This document shows, piece by piece, positions 41,520 to 58,433 of a DNA stretch of 64,000 nt (positions are counted from its first letter, which is position 1; the number at the start of each line of letters is the position of its first letter). The stretch is from Streptomyces soli. Its GTDB lineage: Bacteria; Actinomycetota; Actinomycetes; Streptomycetales; Streptomycetaceae. The notes under the pieces were generated by a model. That model saw only the letters and a list, made by a program, of their open reading frames with translations, had not been told where the DNA came from and did no database searches. Both the position numbers and the translations under genes were made by a program. The stretch lies in NCBI RefSeq assembly GCF_003999195.1, contig NZ_RJVR01000189.1:1-64000 (forward strand). The letters are read 5' to 3'.

Positions 41520-42280
41520 ACACGACGTCTGAGAACACGGCGGCGGCCATCGCCGCGGACCACCATGAACCTCTGTGGGTCCAAGCGGCCCAGGTCATCG
41601 AGCGGCGCGTCACCGACGGCTCCCTCCCGGCGGGACGCCGGCTGCCCGCCGAACGCGAACTCAGCGACGAGTTCGGCATCAGCCGGGTCACGCTGCGCAA
41701 GGCGCTCCACCACCTGGTCGAGCGGGGCGTGCTGCACTCCTCACACGGACGCGGCTGGTACGCCGCCGAGCGCACCGACCGTGAGTGGCCCAACTCCCTG
41801 GAGTCCTTCACCGAGACCGCCCGCCGCAAGGGACTCGTGCCGTCCGCGACCGTCCTGCGCGCCGAGGTCAGCCCCGCCACGCTCGACGAGGCCGACGAGT
41901 TCGTGGTGGCCGGCGGCACGGAGCTGTTCCGCCTCGACCGGGTGCGGATGCTCGACGGCCTGCCGATCGGCGTCGACGCCTCGCGGGTGGTCCTCCACCT
42001 CGCACCCGGGCTGGTGGAGACCGACTTCTCCAAGTCCTCCCTGCTGGCGGAGCTGACGGTGGCGGGCAGCGAACCCGTCGACGCCGAATCCGTCATCGAA
42101 TCCCGGGGCTGTCCACCGGAACTCGCTCCCCACCTGGGCCTCGCGCCCGGCGACCCGGTGCTCGTCATGCAGCAGTCGCTGACGGACGCCAGGGGCCGCG
42201 TCGTACTCGCCACCACGATCACCTACCGGGGTGACCGGTACCGGCTGCGGACCTCGTTCGTCCGCGGCGGAGCCGCCTGA
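41516..42280 (+). CDS. GntR regulator, HutC/UTRA subfamily (paralogue 3)
   Basis: A 254-residue regulator with winged helix LPAERELSDEFGISRVTLRK, wing SSHGRGWYAAE, and a UTRA domain ending YRGDRYRLRTSFVRG. It is closely related to the genes at 24888 and 27139. The GTG start overlaps the epimerase stop, and GGGGGGAAC lies upstream. Being embedded in the catabolic operon, it most likely controls the operon through the palindrome at 35054-35068, with a pathway sugar phosphate as effector (inference). Confidence 0.87.
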   Translation: MNTTSENTAAAIAADHHEPLWVQAAQVIERRVTDGSLPAGRRLPAERELSDEFGISRVTLRKALHHLVERGVLHSSHGRGWYAAERTDREWPNSLESFTETARRKGLVPSATVLRAEVSPATLDEADEFVVAGGTELFRLDRVRMLDGLPIGVDASRVVLHLAPGLVETDFSKSSLLAELTVAGSEPVDAESVIESRGCPPELAPHLGLAPGDPVLVMQQSLTDARGRVVLATTITYRGDRYRLRTSFVRGGAA

Positions 42281-42394
42281 CCCTCCCGCCTCACCGACAC
42301 CCACCCGAGGTACCCACCCGGCCCGCCGCGCCGTCGCCCAGACAGGAGCGCGTGGTAGGCCCGGGCTCCGTGCGCCCGTGAAAGGAACCATCCA

Positions 42395-43429
42395 GTGTCC
42401 GCAGTGCCCGAAGGGACCATTCCCTATCTCGCAGGACGCGCGGCCCAGCCCGCCGCCCTGGAACGCGTCGCCGCGCGGGTCAGCGAGCAGCTCGCCTCGT
42501 CCGCACTGCCCTCGGACATCCGGCGGCCGGTGTTCGTCGGGATCGGCGCGAGCCACGCCGCACTCACCCTGCCGGTGCGCCTCCTCGGTGAGGACGGCAT
42601 CGCAACGCGCCGCGAACTCGCCGGTGACCTCGGCCCGGGACCCGTACTCGCCGACGCCGACCTCGTCATCGGTGTCTCCCAGTCCGGCCGAAGCACCGAG
42701 ACCCTGGAAGCCCTCGGCCAGGTCGCCAGGCATCGACGGGCCGCCCTCGTCAACACCGCGCCGTCACCGCTCTCCGAGGTGGCGGCACACCGTGTCGACC
42801 TGGGCGGCGAACCCGACAGCTACGCCTCGACCGTCGGCTATACCGGCACCCTCGTCGCACTCACCATGGTGGCCCGGGCGCTGACCGGCCGGCCCCTGGA
42901 GCAGATCACGGCCGAGTGGGCGGGCATCGGTGCACGGTTCGAAGCCCATGAGCAGGCGGTGAGCGCCGTCGTCGACGAGGTCGCCGGGCTGGCTGCCGGG
43001 ACTGTCGCGGCCGACGTCATCGCCTCCGGCGCCGCACGCTCGGCCTCCGAGGCCGGAGCCCTCTTGCTGCGCGAGGTCTGCCGGGTCCCGGCGACCGCCC
43101 TGGTCACCCGGAACTATCTGCACGGCGCCATGGAGTCCGCCGGGCGGACCCTGCACGTGGTGATCGGCGACGGGCGCGAACTCGAACTGGCCCGCACCCT
43201 CGCCGAAGCGGGCCATCTGACCCTCGCCGTCACCTCGGCCGCACTCAGCGGCGGCAAGCGGCTGTACGTCGCCAGAGTGCCGCAGGACGTGCCCCTGCCC
43301 GTACGCACCGTGCTGGAGACCGTCGTCCTCCAGCGCCTCGCCGGCGCGCTCGCCGGCACGCGGGACGTGGAGATCGAGGACTTCGTCTTCCACAACGCCG
43401 ACACCAAGACCGAGGAGCCGGTCGCATGA
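42395..43429 (+). CDS. SIS-domain sugar isomerase/deaminase (NagB-II/GlmS-isomerase-like)
   Basis: A 344-residue protein with two SIS (sugar isomerase) domains. The first shows VFVGIGASHAALTLPVRLL and VIGVSQSGRSTETLEAL; the second has RSASEAGALLLREVCR and ALVTRNYLHGAMES. The order matches the isomerase half of GlmS and the NagB-II type glucosamine-6-phosphate deaminases. It starts at GTG 42395 with GAAAGGA upstream. A 114-bp gap separates it from the regulator gene, so an extra promoter is possible. Overlap with the kinase gene (ATGA) suggests kinase and SIS act in succession. Confidence 0.85.
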   Translation: MSAVPEGTIPYLAGRAAQPAALERVAARVSEQLASSALPSDIRRPVFVGIGASHAALTLPVRLLGEDGIATRRELAGDLGPGPVLADADLVIGVSQSGRSTETLEALGQVARHRRAALVNTAPSPLSEVAAHRVDLGGEPDSYASTVGYTGTLVALTMVARALTGRPLEQITAEWAGIGARFEAHEQAVSAVVDEVAGLAAGTVAADVIASGAARSASEAGALLLREVCRVPATALVTRNYLHGAMESAGRTLHVVIGDGRELELARTLAEAGHLTLAVTSAALSGGKRLYVARVPQDVPLPVRTVLETVVLQRLAGALAGTRDVEIEDFVFHNADTKTEEPVA

Positions 43430-44325
43430 CGGGCACCGTGGCCGGCGTGGACATCGGCGGCACCAAGACCCGCATCCTCCTCGCGGACGCCCGCGACGGC
43501 ACCCAGACCGGCGACCGTACGGTGGACAGCACCGGCTGGCAGACCCGCTCCATCCCGGACGCGGCCGCCTGGCTCACCCGGCAGCTGCGCACGGTCACCG
43601 GCGCCACCGTCCCCGAACGGATCGCGGTGGGCGCCCACGGCTGCGAAACCCCCGCGCAGTGCGCCCTCCTCGCGGCCGAACTGCGCGCCCTGACCGGCAT
43701 ACCGGCCGACGTGGTCAACGACGCCGAACTGCTCGTCCCCGCCGCCGGGTTCGGGCACGGCATCGGCGTGGTGGCGGGCACCGGCTCCATTGCGGTCGGG
43801 CGACACCGCGACACCGGGGCGTATCTGTCCGCAGGCGGCTGGGGCTGGGTGCTGGGCGACGAGGGCTCCGGTTCCGCGCTCGTGCGGGAAGCCGCGCGCG
43901 CCCTGCTCAGCGGCGCCGACGCGGGCGCCCCGCCCGACCCGTTGCAGGACGAACTGTTCGCCGCCTTCGGCGTACGCGACCTGCCCGCCCTCGCGGCGGC
44001 GATGAGCTGGGACGGCGGGGTGGAGACGTGGGGCGGCCACGCCCCGGCCGTCTTCGCCGCCGCGGACGCCGGTTCACGGTCGGCCGCCACCGTCATCGAG
44101 GAGGGCGGCAAGGCCCTCGCCGCCCTCGTCACCCACCTCGCGGCACGCGGCGCCCGCACCGACGTCGTCGTCTTCGCGGGCGGCGTCATCACCGGCCGGC
44201 AGCGGCTGCGTGACGGCTTCACCCGTGCTCTGGCCGACTCGCTGCCGGGCACCGAAGCAGTGATGCTTCAGGCGCCCCCGGCCCGGGGCGCGCTCGCGCT
44301 GGCCCTGCGGCAGGGCGGGCGCTGA
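43426..44325 (+). CDS. BadF/GlcNAc-kinase-type sugar kinase
   Basis: A 299-residue ASKHA-fold kinase. The phosphate-1 motif is AGVDIGGTKTRILLAD, phosphate-2 is VVAGTGSIAVGRH, GGWGWVLGDEGSG follows, and the adenosine motif is VVFAGGVITG. It resembles eukaryotic-type N-acetylglucosamine kinase (BadF/BadG/BcrA/BcrD family) more than ROK kinases, since the ROK zinc motif is absent. It likely phosphorylates the imported amino sugar, and its gene overlaps the SIS gene. Confidence 0.86.
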   Translation: MTGTVAGVDIGGTKTRILLADARDGTQTGDRTVDSTGWQTRSIPDAAAWLTRQLRTVTGATVPERIAVGAHGCETPAQCALLAAELRALTGIPADVVNDAELLVPAAGFGHGIGVVAGTGSIAVGRHRDTGAYLSAGGWGWVLGDEGSGSALVREAARALLSGADAGAPPDPLQDELFAAFGVRDLPALAAAMSWDGGVETWGGHAPAVFAAADAGSRSAATVIEEGGKALAALVTHLAARGARTDVVVFAGGVITGRQRLRDGFTRALADSLPGTEAVMLQAPPARGALALALRQGGR

Positions 44326-44326
44326 C

Positions 44327-45244
44327 ATGCGCTATTCCCAGGTGGTGTCCGCCCGCACCAGCGAGACCGTCCAGGTACCGGACACCCGGCCGGCCCCCGG
44401 ACACATCGCCGTCCGCACCCTGGTGTCCGGCATCTGCGCCTCCGAACTGCCCGCCTGGACGGGCCACGACGCAGCCGCACCCCCGCTGCGCCTCGGTCAC
44501 GAACTCACCGGTGAGATCGTGGCCCTCGGGCCGGGCGTGTACGGCTGGACAGTCGGCGAGCGGGTCACCGGATTCGCCTCGGGTGCCTACGCCGAGGTCG
44601 TGCACGTGCCGGCCACCGCCCTGCTGCCGCTGCCGGCGAACGTGTCCGCCGCCACCTTCCTCGGCGAACCGGTCGCCTGCGTCGTCGAGGCCCTCTCCCG
44701 CTGCGGCCTGCGCCCCGGCCTGCGGGTCGCCGTCGTCGGCCTCGGTTTCATGGGACTGATCGCCGTCCAGGCCGCGGCCGCGTACGCGCCGTCCCTCCTT
44801 CTCGGGGTCGACCCCCTGGAGCACGCCCGCGAGCTCGCCGGGCACTTGGGCGCCCACGCGGTGTGTCAACCCGACGACACCGAACCCGCGGCCTTCGACG
44901 TCGTGATCGAGTTCACCGGTACCTCCGCCGGGCTGCGAACGGCGGGCCGGCTCGTCGCCGAGCACGGCACCTTGTGCGTGGGCGGATACCACCACAGTGG
45001 CGAACGCACCTGGGACGTCGAGCTCTGGTACCGCGGCGTCACGGTCGTACACGGCTTCACACCGCAACGTCACCGGCACCTGGCGGCGCTCCGCGAAGGA
45101 CTCCGCCTGGCGTCCGAGCGGGTGCTGACCCTTGAGCCGCTGCTCACCCACGACGTCACGCTGGACGAGGTGGACACCGGCTTCGGCCTCCTGGTCGACC
45201 GGCCGGGCGGCTTTGTGAAATGTGTGATCCGGGCCGCCCTGTGA
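44327..45244 (+). CDS. Zinc-type MDR dehydrogenase, short form
   Basis: A 305-residue medium-chain dehydrogenase. Catalytic zinc residues C37 (SGICASELP) and H58-E59 (LGHELTGE) are present, and the Rossmann motif is VVGLGFMGLIAVQAAA. The four-cysteine structural zinc loop is missing, making it about 40 residues shorter than polyol dehydrogenases. It probably oxidises a sugar or sugar alcohol in the pathway encoded upstream. ATG 44327 lies one base after the kinase stop. Confidence 0.84.
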   Translation: MRYSQVVSARTSETVQVPDTRPAPGHIAVRTLVSGICASELPAWTGHDAAAPPLRLGHELTGEIVALGPGVYGWTVGERVTGFASGAYAEVVHVPATALLPLPANVSAATFLGEPVACVVEALSRCGLRPGLRVAVVGLGFMGLIAVQAAAAYAPSLLLGVDPLEHARELAGHLGAHAVCQPDDTEPAAFDVVIEFTGTSAGLRTAGRLVAEHGTLCVGGYHHSGERTWDVELWYRGVTVVHGFTPQRHRHLAALREGLRLASERVLTLEPLLTHDVTLDEVDTGFGLLVDRPGGFVKCVIRAAL

Positions 45245-46741: not shown

Positions 46742-46757
46742 AAACTTATAACTTTTA
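46742..46757 (+). promoter_or_regulatory. AT-rich promoter/operator directly before the fructosamine-type regulator gene
   Basis: The stretch AAACTTATAACTTTT (46742-46756) contains a -10-like TATAAC and a direct repeat AACTT-AT-AACTT. It is immediately followed by ATG 46757 with no Shine-Dalgarno. A transcript starting 6-7 bp after the -10 would begin at the start codon (leaderless). A clear -35 is not seen. Confidence 0.45.
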
Positions 46758-47632
46758 TGGTCTCGTGCATGGCTGCACCCACCTCTTCACCACTCCTCGG
46801 CTCGGCGTACGACCCGCTGCCGTTCGCGATCGATCGCAGCTCCGCCGTGCCGTACCACGACCAGATCTACCGGCTGCTGCTCGACGAGATCGTGTCCGGG
46901 CGGCTGACCCCGGGCGAGAAGCTGTTGCAGGAGAAGCAGTACGCGGTCCGCCTCGGGGTGTCCCTCGCCCCGGTCCGGCAGGCGTTCCTGGCCCTGGCCA
47001 AGAACGGCTACCTCAACCGCACCCGGGGCCGCGGCACGTTCGTGAGCGAGCCCAAGGTGGCGAGCAAGATCCATCTGCTCACCAGCTTTACCGCGACCCT
47101 CGGTGAGACCGGACTGCCGGTGAGCATGCGCGTACTGGAGTCCGGGACGGGGGTCGCCGACGACGTCGCGGCCGCGGCCCTGGACGTGCCCACCGGGGCC
47201 GAGGTCTTCCGCCTACGACGGGTGGCGTTCCTGGGCGCGGAGCCGGTGGCGCTGCTCACAGCCGTTCTGCCGGCAACCCGGTTCCCGGAACTGGCCGAAG
47301 AGGACTTGGGCACCTCCCTGTACGGGGTGCTGGAACGCCGGTACGGCGCGGTGATGACGTCGGCCCGCAACATCATCGAGGTGGTCCGGGCGCTGCCCGA
47401 CCACGCCAGTCATCTGCAAGTGCCGGTGGGAGAGGCGCTGTTGCAGGTGGAGGCCGTCACCCGCGACCAGCACGACAAGCCGGTGGAACTCTCCGAGGTG
47501 CTGTACCGGGCGGACCGCTTCCGCTTCGAGATCGAGAGCCACCGCGGGGACGGCGGAGTCCGCCACTCGACCGCACGGCCCGCCCAGGACCCCGCGTCCG
47601 CACCCTCCCCAAACCCCGGATCCGCCCCCTAG
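46757..47632 (+). CDS. GntR regulator, HutC/UTRA subfamily, FrlR-like by context
   Basis: A 291-residue regulator: winged helix (LLQEKQYAVRLGVSLAPVRQ, wing TRGRGTFVSE) and UTRA domain (LGTSLYGVLERRYG ... LLQVEAVTRDQHDKPVELSE). It is clearly different from the three EPLWxQA-type paralogues further left. It is 13 bp upstream of the APC permease gene, followed by the PfkB-SIS fusion gene, the same gene types as the fructoselysine (frl) operon, where FrlR is a UTRA regulator. The long Pro/Ala C-tail is unusual. ATG 46769 is an alternative start. Confidence 0.83.
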   Translation: MVSCMAAPTSSPLLGSAYDPLPFAIDRSSAVPYHDQIYRLLLDEIVSGRLTPGEKLLQEKQYAVRLGVSLAPVRQAFLALAKNGYLNRTRGRGTFVSEPKVASKIHLLTSFTATLGETGLPVSMRVLESGTGVADDVAAAALDVPTGAEVFRLRRVAFLGAEPVALLTAVLPATRFPELAEEDLGTSLYGVLERRYGAVMTSARNIIEVVRALPDHASHLQVPVGEALLQVEAVTRDQHDKPVELSEVLYRADRFRFEIESHRGDGGVRHSTARPAQDPASAPSPNPGSAP

Positions 47633-47645
47633 AGAGGGGTCTGAC

Positions 47646-49325
47646 ATGTCGGCACCGAGTCAGCTGCCCACCACACCGGCCGAGGAACAGGCCGGCGTCT
47701 TCATTCGCAACTCCACCGGCCTCATCCGGGAGGTGTCGCTCGTCGACGCCTTCATCATGAACAGCTTCGGCATGAACGTGGCCGTCGGCGGGGTGTTCCT
47801 CTATCTCCAGGCCCAAACCGCCTTCCCCGGTGGGAACATCCTGCTGGCGGTGGTGGTCGGCACCCTGCTCATGGCGTTCACCCTGCTCCGGGTGTACTCC
47901 GAGTTCGCGGCGGCGATGCCCCGGTCCGGCGGTGACTACGTCTTCGTAAGCCGCACTCTGCACCCCATCGTCGGCTTCCTGCTCTCCTGGAGCCAGGGCC
48001 TGTGGCTGATCTTCTTCTGGATCGGCTTCAACGCGTACTTCGCCCTGACCTTCGCGGTGCCGGCGGCGCTGGCCACGCTCAGCTCGGTCACCGGCAACAA
48101 GGTGTGGCTGAACATGAGCAACTCACTGCTGGCCAAGCACGACCTGCTCGGCGTCCACACCCAATGGTGGGTCCTCGGGCTTGGCACCCTCATCACGGTA
48201 AGCTTCGGAGTGCTCATCGTCCTGGGCGGCCAGCGGTACTGGCGATGGCAGAAGTTCCTGTTCGCCTTCGCCGGTCTCAGCCTGCTGCTGTCGATCGTCC
48301 TGCTGCTCTTCCGCGGCGGCCACATCACCGGCGGCTGGAACCAGTTCGCCGGGCACAACGGCGGCCTGACGTACGACCAGATCATCCCGGCCGCGGACAA
48401 GGCGGGGTACACCGGCAACAGCGCGGGCTTCAGTTGGGTGGACACCTTCCTGATGCTGCCCTGGGTGTTTTTCGTGGTGGGCTACGCGCAGGGCTCGGCG
48501 CAGATCGGTGGCGAGATCAAGCGGGCGTCGAAGAACCAGTACCGGGCGATGGTCGGCGGCGTGCTGGTCAACGGCCTGGTGCTGGGCCTGCTCACCATCG
48601 TGGTCACCAGCCGGGTCAGCACCAAGTGGCTGGGCAGTCTGGGCTATCTGGCCAGCGCCCGCCCGGACAAGCTGGGGCTGCCCGCGGGTCTGCCGCCCGG
48701 CTTCAACTTCCTTGCGGCGCTGCTGACTCACAACGTCCTCCTGCTGCTGGTGCTCGGGATCGGCTTCGTCGTCTGGGCGGTGATGGGCACGCCCCTCTCC
48801 ACCATGCAGGCCACCCGCTACATGCTGGCCTGGTCGCTGGACCGTACGGTGCCGCAGCGGCTCGGTGACGTCAGCGAACGGTTCCACACCCCGGTAAAGG
48901 CCATCGCGGTGTGCACCGTCACCGGCGAGATCGCCCTGTTCGCCCTGGTGAACTGGTCCTCGGCGAGCCTGCTCGGGGCTTTGCTGGCCCAGATCGCGGC
49001 CTTCATCGTGGTGGCCGTGGCGGGTGCGGTGTTCCCGTACCGCCTGCCCGCCGTGTGGCAGTCGGCCGGCGGCCGGCGGCTGTTCGGCATACCCGTGGTC
49101 ACCCTCTCCGGGGTGGGCGGCGCGGTGGTGCTGGCCGCGCTGCTGGCCACCTTCATCTTCAACGACACCGTCAACTCGACGTTCGCGGTGACCCGCACGC
49201 TGTCGCTGTGGTTCATGTTCGGCGTGATCGCCAGCGGCGTCCTGTGGTACGCCGCAGTCCGGCTGCTCAACCACCGCCGCGGAGTGGACCTGGGGCTGGT
49301 CTACCGCGAGATCCCTCCCGAGTGA
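47646..49325 (+). CDS. APC-family permease (FrlA-like by context)
   Basis: A 559-residue amino acid/polyamine/organocation transporter with about 12-14 membrane segments. The first contains AFIMNSFGMNVAVGGVFLYL; EFAAAMPRSGGDYVFVSR is the family-typical loop after helix 2. The fructoselysine/psicoselysine transporter FrlA also belongs to this superfamily. Given the kinase-SIS fusion next to it, uptake of a glycated amine or amino acid is proposed (inference). GAGAGGGG precedes ATG 47646. A longer extracytoplasmic loop (about residues 225-260) follows helix 7. Confidence 0.87.
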   Translation: MSAPSQLPTTPAEEQAGVFIRNSTGLIREVSLVDAFIMNSFGMNVAVGGVFLYLQAQTAFPGGNILLAVVVGTLLMAFTLLRVYSEFAAAMPRSGGDYVFVSRTLHPIVGFLLSWSQGLWLIFFWIGFNAYFALTFAVPAALATLSSVTGNKVWLNMSNSLLAKHDLLGVHTQWWVLGLGTLITVSFGVLIVLGGQRYWRWQKFLFAFAGLSLLLSIVLLLFRGGHITGGWNQFAGHNGGLTYDQIIPAADKAGYTGNSAGFSWVDTFLMLPWVFFVVGYAQGSAQIGGEIKRASKNQYRAMVGGVLVNGLVLGLLTIVVTSRVSTKWLGSLGYLASARPDKLGLPAGLPPGFNFLAALLTHNVLLLLVLGIGFVVWAVMGTPLSTMQATRYMLAWSLDRTVPQRLGDVSERFHTPVKAIAVCTVTGEIALFALVNWSSASLLGALLAQIAAFIVVAVAGAVFPYRLPAVWQSAGGRRLFGIPVVTLSGVGGAVVLAALLATFIFNDTVNSTFAVTRTLSLWFMFGVIASGVLWYAAVRLLNHRRGVDLGLVYREIPPE

Positions 49326-49423
49326 CCACGCCGGTGGGGAGGGGACGCTCCTTGCCGGCCGCCCCACCCGCGCCACGCGCCCGCATCGAGACGGTCCGTC
49401 CGGGACCACGAGGAGCTGCTTCG

Positions 49424-51559
49424 ATGGATCGCACCGCTACCGCTACCGCTACCACCGCGGACCGTCGGCTGATCGTGATCGGCAACCTGACGATCGACGA
49501 CGTCGTACGCGGCGACGGCGCGGTCAGCATGGGCCGTCCGGGCGGCAACGCCGTCTACGCCGCCGTCGCCGCCCGGCTGTGGCATCCCGCTGTCGCGGTC
49601 GTCGCCCGACGCGGCGAGGACCTGCCGCCCGAGATCCCCGCCACACTGCGCCGCCTCGGGGTGGACACCGCCGGCCTGCGCCCCGTCGCCGGCCCGACGG
49701 TCCGCAACTGGGTCATCTACGAAGAGGACGGCCGGCGCCGCTGGCTGTACCGGACGCCGTTGGAACGCTCCCGCGAGGTGGCGGTACGCCCGGCCGACAT
49801 CCCCGTGGAATGGCTGAACGGCGGGGAGCCGCCGGTGGTGCATATCGCCGCCATGCCGCTGGCGGCCGCGTCGGCGCTGGTCGCCCACGTACGGGAACAC
49901 GTACCGGGCGCCCTCCTCACGCTGGACACCCACGAGGACTGGGACACCGACCCGGACGCCGTCCTCGCGCTCGCCCGGCGGGTCGACGTCTTCGTGCCCA
50001 GCAGGGAGGAGTTGGCGGCGCTCGCCGGATACGACGAGCCGGAGAAGGCGTCGGCCATGCTGCGCAAGCAGGGCGTGCCCGCGGTCGTCGTCAAGCTCGG
50101 CGCGGACGGCGCCCTGGTCGACGCCGGCCGGGTACCCGTACTTCGGATACCGGCGTGGCCGAGCGACGTCACCGACACCACGGGGGCGGGGGACACCTTC
50201 TGCGGCGCGCTGGCCGCGGCGCTCGCAGCCGGCCTGTCCCTCGCCGACGCGGTGTCCCGGGCCGTGGCCACCGCCGCCTGGGCGGTGCAGGAGTTCGGTT
50301 CGACGGCACTCGCCCGGCTGGAACCGGCCACGGCGAGGGAGCGGTTCGCACGGTTCACGGCGTTGGGGGAACCGGTGGCCGTCGACCGCCCCGGGGACCT
50401 GAAAGAGCCGCCTTCCGACGCGGCGCCCGGGGACCGTATGGCGGCGGCCCCCACCGGTGCCTCCTCGCACGACATCGACGTCATGCGCCGGGAGATCGAG
50501 ATGATCCCCGACGTCATCGCCGCCCGGCTGGCCGATCCGGACGGACACGTGCGACGCGTTGCCGAGGAACTGGCCGCACGCGGGGTGGAGAACCTGTTCC
50601 TGGTCGGCTGCGGCGACTCGTACTTCGCGGGCCGCGCGGCCGAACTCGCGTTCCGCCGGCACACCGGCATCCGCGCGCAGGCCGTCCACGCCCTGGAGTT
50701 CGCCCGCTACCAGGTGCGGTACCTGCCCGAGCGCAGCGCGGTGGTGTGCGTGTCGTTCTCCGGCAAGGTGGGCCGCACCACGGAGGCGGCGGTGCAGGCG
50801 GACCGGTTCGGCGCCCTCACCATCGCCCTCACCAACAACGCCGACGGAGAACTGGCCAGGGCCGCCCAGCTGGTCCTGCCGGTGGATGTGCCCACGCTGG
50901 GCTTCTCTCCCGGGACGAGCAGCTACCTGGGCCTGGTGGCCACCCTCGACGACCTGGCGCTGCGCTGGGCCCAGGCCGCCGCACGCGACACCGGGACCGC
51001 GCGGGCCGCCCTTGACGCCCTCCCGGCGCTGGCGGCCCGGACCCTGCGGGCGAGCGCCGCGCCTGCCCGAGAGGCGGCCGGGTTGCTGGCGGCTCACCCC
51101 TGGATCACCTTCCTCGGCGGCGGCCCCAACGAGGCCTCGGCCCAATTCGGTGCGGCCAAGCTCTTCGAGGGCCCGCAACTGCTCGGTGTGAGCACCAACA
51201 TCGAGGAGTGGGCGCACGAGGAGTACTTCATCAGCTCGCAGGGCACTCCCGTGGTGCTGGTCGCGCCCTCGGGCGCGAGCGCAGACCGGGCCGCCGAGAT
51301 CCTGTCCGAACTGTGCTTCATCGGCGCTCGGGCGTTCGTGGTCAGCGACCTGGCCCCCGAGCTGCCCGCACTGCACCTGCCTCTGACGCCGGGCGCACCC
51401 GAGGAGTTCTCGCCGCTGCTGGCCGCCCTGCCCCTGAGCCTGATCGGTTTCCACCTGGCGGAGGCCCTGGGCAAGGAGAGCTACAACTTCCCCAGCGAGG
51501 CGGCCAGGAAAGAGCACTACGACACCATCCACCGCGTCGTGATCGGAGAGCCCGCATGA
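49424..51559 (+). CDS. PfkB sugar kinase fused to a double SIS domain (FrlD-FrlB-like fusion)
   Basis: One continuous 711-residue frame. Residues 10-310 are a PfkB/ribokinase-fold kinase: RLIVIGNLTIDDVVRG, GRPGGNAVYAAVAARL, and the anion-hole/catalytic motif DTTGAGDTFCGAL near 250-260. Residues 345-711 are two SIS domains: FLVGCGDSYFAGRAAELAF (about 390) and CVSFSGKVGRTTEA, then FLGGGPNEASAQFGAAKLFE. In enteric bacteria the same pair is split: FrlD phosphorylates fructoselysine and FrlB (SIS) cleaves it to glucose-6-P and the amine. A linker (about 310-345) is Pro/Asp-rich. AGGAG precedes ATG 49424. A CTACCG-type repeat encodes the TATATATT stretch at the start. Confidence 0.88.
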   Translation: MDRTATATATTADRRLIVIGNLTIDDVVRGDGAVSMGRPGGNAVYAAVAARLWHPAVAVVARRGEDLPPEIPATLRRLGVDTAGLRPVAGPTVRNWVIYEEDGRRRWLYRTPLERSREVAVRPADIPVEWLNGGEPPVVHIAAMPLAAASALVAHVREHVPGALLTLDTHEDWDTDPDAVLALARRVDVFVPSREELAALAGYDEPEKASAMLRKQGVPAVVVKLGADGALVDAGRVPVLRIPAWPSDVTDTTGAGDTFCGALAAALAAGLSLADAVSRAVATAAWAVQEFGSTALARLEPATARERFARFTALGEPVAVDRPGDLKEPPSDAAPGDRMAAAPTGASSHDIDVMRREIEMIPDVIAARLADPDGHVRRVAEELAARGVENLFLVGCGDSYFAGRAAELAFRRHTGIRAQAVHALEFARYQVRYLPERSAVVCVSFSGKVGRTTEAAVQADRFGALTIALTNNADGELARAAQLVLPVDVPTLGFSPGTSSYLGLVATLDDLALRWAQAAARDTGTARAALDALPALAARTLRASAAPAREAAGLLAAHPWITFLGGGPNEASAQFGAAKLFEGPQLLGVSTNIEEWAHEEYFISSQGTPVVLVAPSGASADRAAEILSELCFIGARAFVVSDLAPELPALHLPLTPGAPEEFSPLLAALPLSLIGFHLAEALGKESYNFPSEAARKEHYDTIHRVVIGEPA

Positions 51560-52344
51560 CGACAACCTTCCCCCTCGCCGACATCGAACACGAGGCGAGC
51601 AGGCTCACCGGGGCCTTCGCCGAACACGGACTGGACGTACGCCTCATCGGCGGCCTCGCCGTCGCCGGCCACCGGCACCGCGAGATACCCGCGGCGCTGC
51701 ACAGGACGTACGGGGATATCGACCTGGTGATCCGTCCGCAGCAGAGCAAGGCTTTTCGCGCCGCCTTGCAGGAGCTGGGCTACACACCCAACGTCCGCTT
51801 CAACAACATGCGCGGTGACCGCCGGCTGCTCTTCGACGACGAGCCCAACGACCGCAGGCTCGACGTGTTCGTCGGCGGTTTCCAGATGTGCCACGCCATG
51901 GACCTCACCGACCGGCTGGACCTCCATCCCCTGACCCTGGCCCCGGCCGACCTGCTGCTCACCAAGCTCCAGGTGGTGCAGATCAACCACAAGGACCTCA
52001 CCGACGCGGTGACTCTCCTGCTGACGCACCCGGTCGACGCGCCGGACGCGCCCGGCACCGACGACGACCACATCAGCACCGACCGGTTGGCCCGGATCAC
52101 CGGCGCCGACTGGGGCTGGCACACCACCGTCACCGACAACCTGGCTCGCGTCGCAGCGGTCGCCGACGAGTTGCTGGCGCCCCCCGACGCCGCGGCGGTC
52201 ACCACCCGCGTCGCCCGGATCGGCGATGCCCTGACCGCAGCGCCCAAGTCCCTGAGGTGGCGCGCCCGCGCCAAGGTCGGCAGGCGCGTGCCCTGGTACG
52301 ACCTCCCTGACGAGATCGGAGGTCCGATCGATGCGCGGAACTGA
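51556..52344 (+). CDS. Nucleotidyltransferase-fold protein
   Basis: A 262-residue protein with a minimal nucleotidyltransferase pattern: VRLIGGLAVAGHRHRE, then TYGDIDLVIR (DxD-like metal site) and RRLDVFVGGFQM. A helical second half (LLLTKLQVVQINHKDLTDAV) resembles aminoglycoside-type or MNT-like nucleotidyltransferases. The target could be a small molecule or protein; not predictable. ATG 51556 overlaps the fusion gene stop, and the 3' end overlaps the phosphoesterase by 14 bp. Confidence 0.78.
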   Translation: MTTTFPLADIEHEASRLTGAFAEHGLDVRLIGGLAVAGHRHREIPAALHRTYGDIDLVIRPQQSKAFRAALQELGYTPNVRFNNMRGDRRLLFDDEPNDRRLDVFVGGFQMCHAMDLTDRLDLHPLTLAPADLLLTKLQVVQINHKDLTDAVTLLLTHPVDAPDAPGTDDDHISTDRLARITGADWGWHTTVTDNLARVAAVADELLAPPDAAAVTTRVARIGDALTAAPKSLRWRARAKVGRRVPWYDLPDEIGGPIDARN

Positions 52345-53290
52345 CCTGAAGATCTTCTTCGCGACCGACATCCACGGCTCGGACCGGTGTTTCCGTAAGT
52401 TCGTCAACGCCGGGAAGTTCTACAGCGCCGACGTCCTGCTGATGGGCGGCGACATCACCGGCAAGATGCTGGTCCCCGTCATCGAGGGCCCCGGCGGCCG
52501 GTACAGCTCCCATCTGTTCGGCCGGGAGCGCACCGTCGACGCCGACGGGCTGCCGGCCCTGCGCAAGGAGATCGCCGACGCCGGCTTCTACGCGTACGAC
52601 ACCACCCCCGACCAGATCGCCGAGTTCCGCGAGCGCCCGGAGTTGGTGGAGGAGACCTTCCGCAAGCACATGCACCGCACGCTGGCGGACTGGATGTCCC
52701 TGGCCGAGGAACGGCTGAGGGGCACCGGCATCATGTGCCTGCTGGCGCCGGGCAACGACGATCCGCTGTTCGTGGACGAGCTGCTCGGCTCATCGGACAT
52801 GCTGGTCAACCCCGAGGGGCGGCTGGTGGAGCTGCCCGGGGGCTTCACGATGATCTCGGTCGGCTACTCCAACCCCACCCCGTGGGACTCGCCGCGTGAG
52901 CTTCCGGAGGATCAACTCGCAGCCCGCATCGACGCGTTGGCTGCGCAGGTGCCCGACATGTCCAGGGCCGTCTTCAACCTCCACGTGCCGCCCAAGGACA
53001 CTCCGATCGACCAGGCCATGGCGCTGGACGCCGAGTTCCGGCCGGTGATGCGGTCCGGGGCCCCGGTGATCACCGGCGTGGGCTCGCGGGCCGTCCGCGA
53101 CGCCATCACCACCTACCAGCCGATGCTGGGCCTGCACGGCCACATCCACGAGTCCCGCGGCGAGGCCCGGATCGGCCGGTCCCGGTCCATCAACCCGGGC
53201 AGCGAGTACTCCGAAGGTGTGCTGCTCGGCGCCCTGGTCTCGCTCTCCTCGAAGAAGGGGGTGCGCGGCTATCAACTCGTCGCGGGATGA
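52331..53290 (+). CDS. Calcineurin-like metallophosphoesterase
   Basis: A 319-residue protein with all metallophosphoesterase motifs: D-x-H in FFATDIHGS (about residues 13-15), GGDIT, APGNDD, NLHVPP and GLHGHIHES. A metal-dependent hydrolysis of a phosphomono- or diester in the cytoplasm is expected. Its overlap with the nucleotidyltransferase gene suggests opposing or sequential action on the same substrate (inference). The LOG gene follows after 37 bp. Confidence 0.86.
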   Translation: MRGTDLKIFFATDIHGSDRCFRKFVNAGKFYSADVLLMGGDITGKMLVPVIEGPGGRYSSHLFGRERTVDADGLPALRKEIADAGFYAYDTTPDQIAEFRERPELVEETFRKHMHRTLADWMSLAEERLRGTGIMCLLAPGNDDPLFVDELLGSSDMLVNPEGRLVELPGGFTMISVGYSNPTPWDSPRELPEDQLAARIDALAAQVPDMSRAVFNLHVPPKDTPIDQAMALDAEFRPVMRSGAPVITGVGSRAVRDAITTYQPMLGLHGHIHESRGEARIGRSRSINPGSEYSEGVLLGALVSLSSKKGVRGYQLVAG

Positions 53291-53327
53291 GGCGCGGGAC
53301 CGCCTGCCGGGCAGTGCGAGCGCAGCC

Positions 53328-53897
53328 ATGGCCGGCGGACTCCCGTGGACGATCGCCGTGGTGGGCTCGGCGCGGCTCGAAGCGCCCGATCCCCGCTGGC
53401 GGCAGGCGCGGGAACTGGGCGCGGCCCTGGGCGGCAGGGGCTGGCGGGTGATGACCGGCGGCTACGGCGGGCTGATGGGCGCCGCGGCGCGCGGGGCACG
53501 CGATGCCGGGGCTACCGTCATCGGGCTGCCGATGCGCGGCTGGTCCGGACTGACCCCGAGCCGGTGGTGCGACGAACTGCGCTGGGCCGACGACTACCCC
53601 GACCGGCTGCGGCACCTGCTGTCCTGCGACGCGGTCGTCGCCCTGGACGGCGGCATCGGCACACTCGCCGAGACCGCCGCGGTGTGGGCGGCCCTGCAGA
53701 CCGAACCCGGCGCCGCGCGGCTGGTCCTGCTCGGCGCGGGATGGCCCGGGCTGCTGGCCGCGTTCGGCGGCGCGCTGGTGGCGGACGCCGCCGATCTGAC
53801 GCTCGCCGCAGCTGCAGCGACAACCGGTCAGGCGATGGAGTTGCTGGACGCGATGGTGTCCGGCGCCCCCGTGGCCGCGCCCGGCCCGAGGGGCTGA
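53328..53897 (+). CDS. LOG-family (lysine-decarboxylase-like) putative phosphoribohydrolase
   Basis: A 189-residue Rossmann-fold protein of the LOG/TIGR00725 type. Visible are IAVVGSAR, GWRVMTGGYGGLMGAAARGA and LDGGIGTLAETAAVW, a variant of PGGxGTxxE in which PGG is DGG. LOG enzymes cleave nucleoside 5'-monophosphates to base and ribose-5-phosphate. With the changed motif the activity is uncertain. ATG 53328 has only a weak ribosome site; one base separates its stop from the allantoinase start. Confidence 0.8.
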   Translation: MAGGLPWTIAVVGSARLEAPDPRWRQARELGAALGGRGWRVMTGGYGGLMGAAARGARDAGATVIGLPMRGWSGLTPSRWCDELRWADDYPDRLRHLLSCDAVVALDGGIGTLAETAAVWAALQTEPGAARLVLLGAGWPGLLAAFGGALVADAADLTLAAAAATTGQAMELLDAMVSGAPVAAPGPRG

Positions 53898-53898
53898 G

Positions 53899-55272
53899 AT
53901 GGAGCTGCTGGTACGCGCCCGCCGGACGGTCACGGATCGCGGTGAGGGGCCCGCCTCCGTCGCCGTCGAGGGCGGCCGGATCGTACGGGTCGGCGGGTTC
54001 GACGACCCGGTTGCCGCCGACGAGGTGGTGGAGCTGGGGGAGGAGGTGGTCCTACTGCCGGGCCTGGTGGACTCGCACGTCCATGTCAACGAGCCCGGGC
54101 ACGACACCTGGGAGGGGTTCGCCAGCGCCACGCGGGCCGCGGCGGCCGGGGGCATCACGACCCTGGTGGACATGCCGCTCGACAGCGTGCCGGTCACGGT
54201 GGATCCGGCCGCCCTGGCCGCCAAACGGACCGCGGCGACGGGGCAGTGCTTCGTGGACGTCGGCTTCTGGGGTGGTGTGGTGCCCGGCGGTACGGCGCAC
54301 CTGCCGGCGCTGCGCGAGGCGGGGGTGCTCGGCTTCAAGTGCTTCCTGTCCGACTCGGGGTCGCCCGACTTCCCGCCGCTGAGCCGACGTCAACTGCTGG
54401 AGACCCTAGGAGTGCTGCGGGAGCTGGACGCCGTGCTCCTGGTGCACGCCGAAAGCGAGCGGGAGCTCTCGGCCGCGCCACCCGCGCGTGGCAGGCGGTA
54501 CGCGGACTTTCTGGCCTCCCGCCCGCCCCAGGCCGAGCTGGCGGCGGTCGCCGCCGTGCTCGGCGCGGCCCGCGCCACCGGCGCCCGGGTGCACATCGTG
54601 CACCTCTCCACCGCGCGAGCGCTGCCGCTGATCGCCGCCGCCCGGCGGGAGGGCGTCGCGGTGACGGCCGAGACCTGCCCGCACTACCTGACGCTGGCGG
54701 CCGAGTTGGTGCCGGACGGCGCCACCGAGTACGCCTGCTGCCCGCCCGTCCGGGAGGCCGCCAACCAGGACGGGCTGTGGGCGGGGCTGGCCGATGGCAC
54801 GCTCGACCTGGTGGTCTCCGACCACTCTCCGTGCGCCGCCGAGCTGAAGCACCTTGACACCGGGGACTTCGGCGCGGCCTGGGGCGGCATCTCCTCGCTC
54901 CAGCTTGCGTTGCCGCTGGTGTGGACGCAGGCGCGCCGGCGCGGCTTCCGCCTGCCCGATGTGGCGACGTGGATGGCCTCGCGGCCGGCCCGGCTGGCCG
55001 GGCTGCCGGCGAAGGGACGGATCGCGCCCGGATACGACGCGGACCTGTGCGCCTTCGCACCGGACGACACCTTCACCGTACGACCGGAAACCCTGCACCA
55101 CCGTCAGCCGGTCACCCCGTACACCGGGCGGACCCTGCACGGCGTGGTGCGCCGCACCTGGCTGCGCGGACGCGAGGTGGACTTCCGGTGCCCGGCAGGC
55201 CGGTTGCTGACCGCCGAGGCGACCGCGGAGCGGCATGAGAGAGACAACCAGAACCCGGGAGGGAACCGATGA
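53899..55272 (+). CDS. Allantoinase/dihydropyrimidinase-type cyclic amidohydrolase
   Basis: A 457-residue metal-dependent amidohydrolase. H60 and H62 lie in GLVDSHVHVNEPGHDTWEG, the carbamylated lysine K147 in GFKCFLSDSG, further ligands are in VHAE and HIVHLST, and the catalytic Asp is in VSDHSPC. The CCPPVRE and WGGISSLQ motifs are those of allantoinase (AllB). It hydrolyses allantoin or a related hydantoin ring. Its neighbours are not the usual purine genes (no alc, ure or all-regulator), so another hydantoin or ureide may be the substrate. The ATGA overlap couples it to the racemase. Confidence 0.86.
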   Translation: MELLVRARRTVTDRGEGPASVAVEGGRIVRVGGFDDPVAADEVVELGEEVVLLPGLVDSHVHVNEPGHDTWEGFASATRAAAAGGITTLVDMPLDSVPVTVDPAALAAKRTAATGQCFVDVGFWGGVVPGGTAHLPALREAGVLGFKCFLSDSGSPDFPPLSRRQLLETLGVLRELDAVLLVHAESERELSAAPPARGRRYADFLASRPPQAELAAVAAVLGAARATGARVHIVHLSTARALPLIAAARREGVAVTAETCPHYLTLAAELVPDGATEYACCPPVREAANQDGLWAGLADGTLDLVVSDHSPCAAELKHLDTGDFGAAWGGISSLQLALPLVWTQARRRGFRLPDVATWMASRPARLAGLPAKGRIAPGYDADLCAFAPDDTFTVRPETLHHRQPVTPYTGRTLHGVVRRTWLRGREVDFRCPAGRLLTAEATAERHERDNQNPGGNR

Positions 55273-56012
55273 AGATCCTGGTGGTCAACCCCAACACCTC
55301 CGTGTCGATGACGGAGTCCATCGCCCGGTCCGCCCGTCGCGCCGCCTCGCCCGGGACGGAGATCCTGGCGGTGCAGCCGTTCTTCGGGCCGGAGGCGATC
55401 GACTGCAGTCTGGAGAGCTACCTGTCGGCGGTCGCGGTGATGGACCGGATCCTGGCGGTGGGGGAGCCGTACGACGCGGTCGTACTGGCCGGGTTCGGCG
55501 AACACGGCAGGGAGGGTGTGCAGGAGATCACCGATGTTCCGGTGCTGGACATCGCGGAGAGTTCGGCGCACGTCGCCCAGATGATCGGCCGCAGCTATTC
55601 GGTGGTGACCACCCTGGCGCGCTCGGTCGGGGCGATCGAGGACCGGCTCCGGCTGGCCGGGCTCGCGGACCGCTGCGCGTCGGTGCGTTCCTGCGGTCTG
55701 TCCACCGCGGAGGTGGACGCCGACCCGCCGGCGGCTGTCGCGGCGATCCTCGCCGAGGCCGAGCGGGCGGTGCGGGAGGACCGGGCGGAGGTGATCTGCC
55801 TGGGGTGCGGGGGGATGGCCGGGCTTGAGGAGGCGATCACCGGCCGGCTGGGGGTGCCGGTGGTGGACGGCGTGGCCGCGGGGGTCCGGCTGGCCGAAGC
55901 GGTGGCCGGAATGGGATTGCGGACGAGCAAGGTGTGCACGTACGCGGCGCCGCCCGCCCGGCCGGTCCCCGGCTGGCCGCTGTCCCGGAGCGGGGCGGAA
56001 CGCGCTGCGTGA
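55269..56012 (+). CDS. Asp/Glu/hydantoin racemase-family protein lacking the first catalytic cysteine
   Basis: A 247-residue protein with the VVNPNTS opening (residues 7-11) and the second cysteine C180 in LGCGGMAG. At the first catalytic position, normally ACF, it reads AGFGEHG, so the cysteine is replaced by Gly75. Two-base racemisation needs both cysteines. The protein may act in one direction only, as a decarboxylase/isomerase-like enzyme, or as a non-catalytic partner. It is coupled to the allantoinase gene, whose family partners often include allantoin racemase. Confidence 0.82.
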   Translation: MKILVVNPNTSVSMTESIARSARRAASPGTEILAVQPFFGPEAIDCSLESYLSAVAVMDRILAVGEPYDAVVLAGFGEHGREGVQEITDVPVLDIAESSAHVAQMIGRSYSVVTTLARSVGAIEDRLRLAGLADRCASVRSCGLSTAEVDADPPAAVAAILAEAERAVREDRAEVICLGCGGMAGLEEAITGRLGVPVVDGVAAGVRLAEAVAGMGLRTSKVCTYAAPPARPVPGWPLSRSGAERAA

Positions 56013-56510
56013 ACGCCCTACTCGATTTCTTTCGTGACGGAGCCAACCTGGCGGTGAGGCGGATTCCCTGACCGGTGGCCCCGACGGATTGACGAGCCGG
56101 TAATCCGGCGTGAAAGGAGGGATGGAAGGGCGCGCTAAGGGGGTATTGCGAAGAATTCAGCCACAACGGTTCAGTGATAGCCGAAGTAATCTTTGTCATG
56201 CACTCGACATTCTGTCGCGCGTGTTTAGTTTTTGTTTCAAATACCTCAGTAGGGCCAGGTAAGGGGTCTGTTGATCACCTTCGAATGGCCGATTGGCCCG
56301 GATTCGTACGGCATTGGCAGCAACTCAGAATTCATCCCACCGGAATGCTGTGGAAATATCGGCGTGAGCCTCTGCGGACCCGTTAAGAAATTCTCTCGGC
56401 GGGCTTCCCCCGATATTCGCCAGGTCCTACAGTCTCCTCTCGGCGTCGCCATTCCCCCCACGTTCACGCCTTTCCATTCGCCATGCACGAACGAGGACAG
56501 GAATCTGCAG
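56013..56510. other. 498-bp gene-free, AT-richer interval
   Basis: This interval is clearly lower in GC than its surroundings, especially 56140-56260 (runs such as TTTAGTTTTTGTTTCAAATA). I see no tRNA, no convincing stem-loop and no canonical promoter. GAAAGGAGGGATGG at about 56111-56124 looks like a ribosome site plus ATG, but the frame that follows is short. The amidase promoter is presumably here. The composition suggests either a long regulatory leader or a remnant of inserted DNA. Confidence 0.5.
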
Positions 56511-58433
56511 ATGCCCGCAGAACGCGTCACCTCAACGAGCCCGGACACCGCCGTGCCGGCGGTGTCCGGGCCCCCTCGGAGACTGAGCCGCCGGACGGTG
56601 CTGGGCGGGGCCGCCGCCATGACGGGAGCGGTCGCCGTGTCGGCCGCCACCGTGGTGCCGGCAGCCGCGGCCCCGGCACCGACGGCCGCGAGCGCGTACG
56701 AGCGCGCCCTTCCCGCCGTCTCCGGGATCAAGAAGCGGTCCCGGCTGGTCGACTACGAGGTGTTCGAGCTGGCCGCCTTGATGCGGGCCGGTGTCGTCAC
56801 TTCGGTGCAGGTCACCCAGGCGTACTTGGACCGTATCGACCGCTTCAACGGCCCCTTCGAGACCTACGGCGACAACGGCCTGTACAACGCGTTCGTCCGG
56901 ATCGACCGGGACGGCGCGCTGGCCCAGGCGGCCGCCGCTGACGCGCAGTTCAAAAAGGCCAGGCACTCGGGCGAGGACCTGCCCCCGCTGCTCGGCATCC
57001 CGTTCGGCATCAAGGACTCGGTGGCCGTCAAGGGCTTCGAGGCCAAGGACGGCAGCCACGCCTTCGACGGCAACGCCGCGCTGCGGGACGCCACGGTCGT
57101 CCACCGGCTGCGCACGGCCGGCGCGGTGATCCTGGGTCACACGGTGTGCTCCGCCTTCTCCGGCTCGATCACCGGCACCTTCGCCGGCAACGCCTGGAAC
57201 ATGGCCTATGTACCCGGCGGATCCAGCCAGGGCTCCGGTGTCGCTCCGATCGCTCGGCTGGCGGCCGCCGCCATCGGCGAGGAGACCGGCGGGTCCATCA
57301 TGATGCCGTCGGCGGCCAACGGCGCCAGCGGCATCAAGCCGTCGCTCGGCACCAGTTCGGTGGCCGGGCTGATGCCGCTGTCGCCGGGATACGACGTGCT
57401 GGGCCCGATCGCCCGGTCGGTGCGCGACGCGTCCCTGATCCTCTCGGTGATCCTCGGCCCCGACCCCGCCAACGACCCCCTGACCCTTGCGGCCCCCGAC
57501 CCCTTCCCGGCCATGCCGCTCACCGCCCGCAAGGGTTCCCGGCCGCTTTCCGGCATCACCATCGGGATCCCGCAGACCGACTGGATGCGTACCAGCAAGG
57601 GCATCCAGGTCGGCACCCCGCCGCAGGACCTCTACGACGCCGACCACAGCGCCGCCTTCGAACGGCTCAAGCAGCAACTCACCTCGCTGGGCGCGACGGT
57701 GAAGGAATTCCCCGGCCTGGACGTCACCGTGCCGCAGAACGACCCGTACTTCGCCAGCACCGACGTCCTGGCCACCGTCGACGGTTCCCCCGTCTCACCC
57801 TCCTCCGCGGTGCTGAGCCCCAACCGGTACGAGATCGGCTACTGGAAGGCGGTCGGAGACTTCGCCGCCACCCGCCCGGCCGACCAGGCAGCCGCGCTGC
57901 TGGCCCAGTACGGGCGCAAGGGCCCCAACGACACGACGGCCTCCTTCGACTCGGCGACCCGGTTCGCCGGCGCGGTGCCCGCCTCCGTCCGGGTCGAGGG
58001 CGAGAAGCGGCGCCGCACCCTGCAGGCCAACTACCAGGCCGCACTGGACGCGGCGGGCGTGGACTTCATGCTCGTACTGTCCATCGGCGCGCAGATCGGT
58101 TTGCGCGCCGGCGGTGGCTTCCCGGTCTACCGGGCCTACTACCAACTGCCCAACGCCCTGACGTGGCCCATGGTCTCGTTCCCGATCGGCTACGACAGCA
58201 CGGTCGGCCTGCCGATAGCGGCTCAGTTCTGGGGGCCGAGGTTCAGCGAGCCGGAGATCGTCCAGGCCGCCATCGACTACCAGGCCCACTTCCCCGAGTA
58301 CCACAACGCGGCCCCGCCGGACCCGGTCACCACGGGGACGCCGAAGGTCGCGCCGCGCCGCCTGACTGTGGCGCCCGCGGCACCGCCCGAGCTGTCCAAC
58401 GACCCGCTAGTAGCCGAGGAGGCCCTGCGATGA
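56511..58433 (+). CDS. Tat-exported amidase-signature-family hydrolase
   Basis: A 640-residue secreted amidase. The signal region has the twin-arginine motif RRLSRRTVLGG (residues 23-33) and a cleavage region after VVPAAAAPAP. Amidase-signature triad: K168 (GIPFGIKDSVA), cis-Ser around S238/S239 (PGGSSQGSG) and the nucleophile S262 (EETGGSI). It hydrolyses an amide outside the cell; the substrate is unknown. AGGACAGGAA precedes ATG 56511. Its stop overlaps the start of the 57-residue peptide gene (ATGA). The amidase is longer than typical cytoplasmic family members (450-500) because of the leader and a C-terminal extension. Confidence 0.87.
   Translation: MPAERVTSTSPDTAVPAVSGPPRRLSRRTVLGGAAAMTGAVAVSAATVVPAAAAPAPTAASAYERALPAVSGIKKRSRLVDYEVFELAALMRAGVVTSVQVTQAYLDRIDRFNGPFETYGDNGLYNAFVRIDRDGALAQAAAADAQFKKARHSGEDLPPLLGIPFGIKDSVAVKGFEAKDGSHAFDGNAALRDATVVHRLRTAGAVILGHTVCSAFSGSITGTFAGNAWNMAYVPGGSSQGSGVAPIARLAAAAIGEETGGSIMMPSAANGASGIKPSLGTSSVAGLMPLSPGYDVLGPIARSVRDASLILSVILGPDPANDPLTLAAPDPFPAMPLTARKGSRPLSGITIGIPQTDWMRTSKGIQVGTPPQDLYDADHSAAFERLKQQLTSLGATVKEFPGLDVTVPQNDPYFASTDVLATVDGSPVSPSSAVLSPNRYEIGYWKAVGDFAATRPADQAAALLAQYGRKGPNDTTASFDSATRFAGAVPASVRVEGEKRRRTLQANYQAALDAAGVDFMLVLSIGAQIGLRAGGGFPVYRAYYQLPNALTWPMVSFPIGYDSTVGLPIAAQFWGPRFSEPEIVQAAIDYQAHFPEYHNAAPPDPVTTGTPKVAPRRLTVAPAAPPELSNDPLVAEEALR

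Follow-up and report, generated by a model that had tools for sequence, protein, structure and literature searches.

Introduction

In the first 64,000 nucleotides of contig NZ_RJVR01000189.1 of Streptomyces soli, the whole of which we refer to as the window, a single gene joins a PfkB-type kinase to a half made of two SIS domains. Which reactions would such a protein carry out, and on what kind of compound? PfkB enzymes phosphorylate sugar hydroxyls, and SIS domains of the GlmS type catalyze the opening of phosphosugar rings and a proton shift between C1 and C2. A first reading of the DNA, made without database searches (hereafter the sequence-only reading), took the gene for a fusion of the fructosamine kinase FrlD with the deglycase FrlB. 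We find that the kinase-SIS fusion is real, conserved and rare, and that it would work like the kinase and phosphosugar-enzyme pairs of the frl/fra type, yet is not a member of the FrlD or FrlB families by profile scores, trees or signature residues. Its neighbours suggest, tentatively, a role in the breakdown of ureides or hydantoins linked to a sugar.

Results

A kinase and a double-SIS half in one frame

The gene and its parts are as follows.

49424..51559, + strand: kinase-SIS fusion protein of 711 amino acids (aa) (Pfam, reading frame, orthologues, AlphaFold2 model)
49424..50395, + strand: PfkB kinase half, residues 1-324, catalytic motif DTTGAGD at 251-257 (Pfam, AlphaFold2 model, fold search)
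50396..50464, + strand: linker, residues 325-347, predicted to be disordered and differing in length among orthologues (model, alignment)
50468..51538, + strand: double-SIS half, residues 349-705, with GCGDS from 395, Glu582 and His598 (model, fold, alignment)

The listing of open reading frames (ORFs) and their translations gives one uninterrupted frame from the ATG at 49424 to the stop at 51559. A longer ORF of 882 aa, starting at 48911, runs into the preceding permease gene, and the alignments of fused relatives start at residues 8-15. Pfam recognizes PfkB (PF00294) at residues 38-295, with 115 bits against a cut-off of 25.8, which together with the GAGD motif and the fold places the first half in the PfkB/ribokinase superfamily, and SIS (PF01380) at residues 389-488, with 68 bits against a cut-off of 25, which together with the two-SIS fold places the second half in the SIS superfamily. 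The two motifs that the sequence-only reading had located near residues 250 and 390, DTTGAGD and GCGDSYFAG, lie at 251 and 395. Its two SIS domains are likewise found: Pfam scores a single SIS stretch, and residues 346-705 of the model superpose on the two-SIS isomerase domain of GFAT/GlmS with a Z-score of ~41, ahead of NagB-II (35.6) and FrlB (8glr, 31.8).

The AlphaFold2 model of the whole protein has a mean predicted local distance difference test (pLDDT) of 87.1 and a predicted template modeling score (pTM) of 0.55, with low confidence in the linker (325-347); given this pTM, the placing of the two halves relative to each other is unsure. Modeled alone, the kinase half (residues 1-316) reaches a pLDDT of 88.8 and a pTM of 0.89. 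Its top fold match is the nucleoside kinase 3kd6 of Chlorobium tepidum (Z 36.6, 2.0 Å over 290 residues, 27% identity), whose solved chain comprises 300 residues and, unlike the fusion, has no SIS part; the second is ribokinase (Z 32.5). FrlD is not among the fold matches listed, which proves nothing either way. The predicted kinase half thus appears nucleoside-kinase-like, and its fold, taken by itself, points to the phosphorylation of a nucleoside.

Conservation, rarity and reality of the fusion

A scan of genome contigs yielded 18 related loci, of which 11 encode a fused protein (L012-L022) and six encode kinase and SIS protein as neighbouring genes (L023, L024, L025, L027, L028 and L029), while one is incomplete (L026). 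In all 11 further fused orthologues the junction is open and free of stop codons, with a linker of varying length, which rules out an artefact of one genome. In 200 genomes of the Nonomuraea family, the SIS profile scored 489-555 bits in nine, each time within an open frame 687-1246 aa long and several times on the same contigs as loci of the 18-locus scan; these were followed by seven places of 277-425 bits and then a gap down to 171 bits or less; the matches below this gap are suggestive of GlmS because their open frames mostly exceed 600 aa. Since the 11 orthologues and these nine open frames read through, a frameshift or assembly artefact, which the sequence-only reading had named as a way in which it could fail, is very unlikely.

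At the same time, the fusion is rare. Among 150 genomes searched, the source included, only the source genome contains a full-length match. At an E-value of 1e-60, the SIS profile finds one of 396 genomes in the source's phylum (the source itself), one of 344 in the phylum of genome G536 and five of 398 in that of G534. A plasmid search returned no match at 1e-20 and, at 1e-5, 76 records with no single place covering 80% of the query. In the trees, the split pairs L023 and L024 lie closest, beside the fused L020, so that both fusion and secondary splitting are possible. Among the open-access papers listed by text searches, whose scope takes in neither subscription papers nor preprints, none appears to describe a PfkB-SIS fusion or the kinase-SIS pair of this family, in keeping with the sequence-only reading, which knew of none.

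Relationship to known kinases and SIS proteins

The comparison with FrlD and FrlB, or with FraD and FraB, is an obvious one: a PfkB kinase and an SIS enzyme, a UTRA/GntR regulator, and catalytic Glu and His columns are found in both. However, in the E. coli frl operon these are separate genes, and the SIS clade, signature residues and neighbours are different. The fraBDAE operon likewise has kinase and deglycase as two genes (PMC4941530), with FraD making 6-phosphofructose-aspartate and FraB cleaving it. The fusion scores 41 bits with the FrlD model NF007321 (cut-off 247) and 40.2 bits with the FrlB model NF008481 (cut-off 430), although none of 14 control genomes, E. coli included, passed the latter cut-off, so that this search provides no positive control. 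The best score among the SIS-type profiles listed belongs to GlmS (TIGR01135), with 79.7 bits against a cut-off of 418 and over the isomerase part only; NagB-II (45 against 430), ribokinase (81 against 300) and ribose-1-phosphate kinase (weak, far below its cut-off) also remain under their thresholds.

In the SIS trees, the family forms a separate clade that excludes FrlB, GlmS and AgaS of E. coli (support 92/99, and 95/84 and 99/97 in a second tree), although FrlB is represented by a single reference on a long branch. The long reference branches do not let the trees rank the three by closeness. Kinase sequences from these loci likewise fall into a single clade (84/92), apart from FrlD, PsuK, RbsK, YegV and others. 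The trees leave aside two SIS paralogues of the source genome (L002 and L007), some alignments L008 and the window's second SIS protein, the second tree the near-duplicates L013, L018, L029 and L031, and the residue checks the incomplete L026 as well as L096.

At the residue level, the column of GlmS Thr302 holds an Asp in every one of the 24 family members first aligned, and all retain the columns of Lys485, Glu488 and His504, which we take to be catalytic, as well as a pair of Glu residues (EE) preceding the His. In a wider set, L116, L117 and L092-L095 agree with this signature, and the outgroup L118 has Thr in the Asp column. The E. coli proteins FrlB, GlmS and AgaS depart from the family in two places, the Asp column and the EE pair; FrlB does so at the Lys as well. 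Glu582 and His598 of the fusion align with E233 and H249 of E. coli FrlB and with E489 and H505 of GlmS (Met counted; reference numbering verified against the E. coli sequence). Because the SIS half keeps these catalytic columns, a kinase step followed by phosphosugar chemistry is a fair reading. One family SIS protein, L091:9242-10330, has Gln in place of the otherwise conserved catalytic His.

In fold, the SIS half is closest to the isomerase domain of GlmS/GFAT, whose catalytic columns it keeps, but the fusion has a kinase instead of the glutaminase domain, Asp at the Thr302 column, and EE[WF]xH where GlmS has GELKHGP. On profile scores, separate clades and signature residues, we reject membership in FrlD and FrlB. 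Of the sequence-only reading there stands a kinase joined to a GlmS/FrlB-type SIS half with its Glu/His pair; its identification as FrlD-FrlB is not supported, and the SIS half groups apart from FrlB, an outcome it had itself named as speaking against that identification.

The operon of the fused gene

The neighbouring genes in the window are the following.

46757..47632, + strand: GntR/UTRA transcriptional regulator, 291 aa (Pfam GntR and UTRA over cut-off)
47646..49325, + strand: APC-family permease, 559 aa (Pfam AA_permease_2)
51556..52344, + strand: NTP_transf_5-type putative nucleotidyltransferase (Pfam PF14907)
52331..53290, + strand: metallophosphoesterase-like protein (motifs DIHGS, GGDIT, GND and GHIH by eye)
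53307..53897, + strand: SLOG/LOG-like protein (GGIGTLAE by eye), start codon uncertain (Pfam LDcluster4 over cut-off)
53899..55272, + strand: second allantoinase, an AllB paralogue (TIGR03178, 544 bits against a cut-off of 358)
55269..56012, + strand: Asp/Glu/hydantoin racemase (Pfam PF01177, 182 bits)
56271..58433, + strand: amidase, operon membership uncertain (Pfam Amidase)

The arrangement noted in the sequence-only reading, with genes for a UTRA regulator and an APC permease ahead of the fusion, recurs across the 12 fused loci formed by the window and its 11 orthologues: the permease is present in all 12, and a regulator homologue in 11, the contig of the twelfth beginning within the permease gene. 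As to the likeness to frl operons that had been drawn from these two genes, the regulator is 30% identical to FrlR (114 bits), and the permease barely aligns with FrlA (E 2e-4, 52 aa). APC transport does not define frl systems: in B. subtilis the importer, FrlONM, is of the ABC type (PMC12632257).

Downstream, the start of the nucleotidyltransferase gene overlaps the stop codon of the fusion (ATGA), and its homologues occur in 11 of the 12 loci, one of them cut by a contig end. The phosphoesterase-like protein (319 aa, 11/12 loci) has no match in Pfam, NCBIfam or the sequences of the Protein Data Bank (PDB) at the thresholds used; it is 82-88% identical in eight of the ten other fused loci holding it, 48% in L019 and 65% in L020. 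PDB sequence searches with the phosphoesterase-like and nucleotidyltransferase-like proteins, and with the BtpA proteins discussed below, gave nothing useful. The LOG-like protein (11/12 loci) stays under the cut-offs of the LOG-type NCBIfam models, and several of its PDB matches are cytokinin riboside 5'-monophosphate phosphoribohydrolases.

AllB and the racemase are found in nine of the 12 fused loci. The three loci without allantoinase are L013 and L019, whose contigs end too early to tell, and L020, which lacks it over 18 kb. In eight of the 12, an allantoicase homologue follows the racemase, and that of L021 passes its own model (342 bits, cut-off 278). The allantoinase of the operon is a second copy: another one elsewhere in the source genome scores 620 bits and lies beside an allantoicase homologue, and genomes G529 and G532 each have two allantoinases over the cut-off.

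Neighbourhoods in other lineages

Several split pairs in other lineages are surrounded by genes of related functions, those for oxamate carbamoyltransferase among them, and BtpA genes occur in split clusters next to the SIS gene or near it. In L025 (Bacillota), a GntR regulator, kinase, SIS protein, BtpA and a PnrA/BMP-type ABC transporter accompany a D-hydantoinase (499 bits against 393) and two genes under their cut-offs, one xanthine-dehydrogenase-like (530 against 780) and one cytosine-deaminase-like (427 against 438). The spirochaete loci L028 and L108 combine kinase, SIS protein, BtpA and BMP transporter with a uridine-phosphorylase-like gene (272 against 280), a racemase, a HAD-like protein and two hydantoinases, one over the cut-off (404 against 393) and one under it. 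L116 (Bacillota) has PucR, ECF-like transporter genes (by eye), kinase, SIS protein, BtpA, the deoxyribose-phosphate aldolase DeoC (274 against 117), FdrA (529 against 433), AllG, AllH and a hydantoinase-family gene (287, under 393). On a Mesorhizobium plasmid (L033), UTRA regulator, kinase, SIS protein, BtpA and BMP transporter are followed about 8.6 kb on by an annotated hydA, and on a Rhizobium plasmid (L037), 3 kb with sugar-ABC-like genes (by eye) separate the kinase and SIS genes, after which comes a uridine-phosphorylase-like gene. Finally, L030 and L031, from the same-genus genomes G007 and G022, have SIS protein, kinase, racemase, an amidohydrolase and a weakly PuuE-like protein (107 bits against 425, no Pfam match). 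The best models of this amidohydrolase are 5'-deoxyadenosine deaminase and TRZ/ATZ hydrolase, with 8-oxoguanine deaminase lower, all under cut-off; the queries for the LOG-like protein and for BtpA both find no match in these two loci.

Could such neighbours be there by chance? Racemase genes number 2-5 per genome in the seven genomes counted, and hydantoinase-family genes 0-7 in those in which they were counted, from which 0.005-0.05 copies per genome would be expected within 10 kb of kinase-SIS genes by density alone. It is thus unlikely that ureide and hydantoin genes came to lie there by chance in several separate lineages.

Discussion

A two-step enzyme for nucleoside-like N-glycosides?

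Our preferred explanation, to which we assign a probability of roughly 0.4, is that the gene encodes an enzyme acting in two steps, within a so far undescribed pathway that breaks down nucleoside-like N-glycosides of ureides or hydantoins. It draws on the 3kd6-like kinase fold, the conserved Glu/Lys/His and EE columns, the recurring ureide, hydantoin and nucleoside genes and the second-copy allantoinase. The compound would enter through the APC permease or, in relatives, through a PnrA/BMP-type ABC or (by eye) ECF transporter, and the PfkB half would phosphorylate the terminal hydroxyl of its sugar. The SIS half would then open the phosphosugar ring via His598, and Glu582 would move the C1/C2 proton, so that the nitrogenous aglycone and a sugar phosphate are released. 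The hydantoin racemase and allantoinase encoded next to the fusion would racemize the aglycone and open its ring, joined by allantoicase where its gene is present. The substrate class, the order of steps, cleavage by the SIS half itself and any channelling are what we infer here. The nearest analogy to such a route is PsuK and PsuG, a PfkB nucleoside kinase followed by an enzyme that cleaves the phosphorylated nucleoside, with psuK adjoining psuG in E. coli; however, the kinases are not sisters in the tree, and PsuG is not known to be an SIS protein.

More broadly, the kinase-SIS pair, with the help of BtpA or LOG-like proteins elsewhere, might form the core of an unrecognized salvage route for nucleosides with ureide or hydantoin bases, such as oxidized guanosine or urate-type compounds, which would proceed by sugar phosphorylation and SIS-type deglycation and pass the aglycone to allantoin- and hydantoin-opening enzymes. 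We regard this wider proposal as possible but doubtful; we know of no description of this chemistry for nucleosides. The recurrence of these genes in Actinomycetota, Bacillota, Spirochaetota and rhizobial plasmids would then mark a missing step of nucleoside or ureide catabolism, and the proposal offers a testable function for the SIS genes linked to BtpA/SgcQ, which are also found without an adjacent kinase. If one chain does hand over a reactive phosphosugar, the fusion would be a clean case of channelling, with natural split versions for comparison.

Several points weigh against the two-step N-glycoside enzyme. That a Glu/His isomerase can cleave an amide-type N-glycosidic bond is chemically unproven, and DeoC in L116, taken literally, implies a 2-deoxy sugar without the C2 hydroxyl that aldose-ketose chemistry needs. 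The neighbours are also uneven: over 11-18 kb per locus, L020, L023, L024, L027/L119 and L117 match no racemase, allantoinase, hydantoinase or phosphorylase query, L037 matches the phosphorylase query only, and the racemase queries find nothing in L025 and L116. Furthermore, the chance estimate was made after the neighbours were known, ignores the general clustering of catabolic genes and stands beside these five loci with none.

Alternative explanations

The real N-glycosidase of the fused operon could, moreover, be the LOG-like protein, with the SIS half a plain isomerase. In this explanation, the kinase step comes before cleavage of the N-glycosidic bond by another protein, the LOG-like one or, in split clusters, BtpA, and the SIS half does no more than isomerize the freed sugar phosphate. 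The phosphoribohydrolases of nucleoside 5'-monophosphates among the PDB relatives of the LOG-like protein, its gene in the split loci L023 and L024 besides most fused ones, the position of BtpA next to SIS genes and the GlmS-like SIS fold are all in its favour. Yet neither partner is universal, as BtpA is found in two of the 12 genomes searched, with a fused copy in eight of the ten lacking it, and L030 and L031 match neither; in addition, if the product were ribose 5-phosphate, no special isomerase would be called for. We consider a separate cleaving enzyme possible, though less likely than the preferred explanation.

A fused FrlD-FrlB that degrades fructosamines through the 6-phosphate would account for the identical pair of superfamilies, the FrlR-like UTRA regulator, the APC permease and the conserved Glu/His, but the far lower scores, separate clades, signature differences and allantoin/hydantoin neighbours make it improbable. 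More improbable still is an amino-sugar kinase joined to a deaminase of the NagB-II kind: NagB-II is close in fold, and the outgroup SIS protein L118:5082-10025 (207 bits to the profile) lies beside NagA-like (by eye) and BadF-like genes, which hints at an amino-sugar ancestry of the family; on the other hand, the NagB-II score is far too low, L118 lacks the family Asp, and the genes conserved around the fused loci include no recognized amino-sugar gene. Least probable is a kinase for ribose 1-phosphate or free pentose with a pentose bisphosphate isomerase, acting on sugars freed by a nucleoside phosphorylase, which the uridine-phosphorylase-like genes of L028 and L037 and the weak ribokinase and ribose-1-phosphate kinase scores would suggest, but both scores are far below cut-off, Pfam and NCBIfam recognize no nucleoside phosphorylase in the window's operon, and the phosphorylase query has no match in L019, L020 and L100, the only fused loci so queried.

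Further SIS and kinase clusters

Relatives of the SIS half also occur immediately after a BtpA gene with no adjacent kinase recognized (L091-L096, L034 and L035). The one in L093 is preceded by an F420-type LLM oxidoreductase, a TauD-family protein and a weakly GntC-like aminotransferase (75 bits against 415), and that in L035 lies near FolE, QueE, 6-carboxytetrahydropterin synthase and phosphoribosyltransferase genes. Within the window, a second GntR/UTRA-type gene, followed by an SIS protein whose SIS model scores are far below the cut-offs, a BadF/NagK-like kinase and an alcohol dehydrogenase, occupies 41516-45244, 1.5 kb before the regulator of the fused operon. Genome G672, which carries the fused L100, has a further cluster at L107:6511-15771 with an NTP_transf_5-like gene, an APC permease, BtpA, a phosphoesterase-like protein, an FGGY-like kinase (by eye), a second BtpA, another FGGY-like kinase and a xylose-isomerase-like TIM barrel; here, the set of nucleotidyltransferase, permease and phosphoesterase recurs with other sugar kinases.

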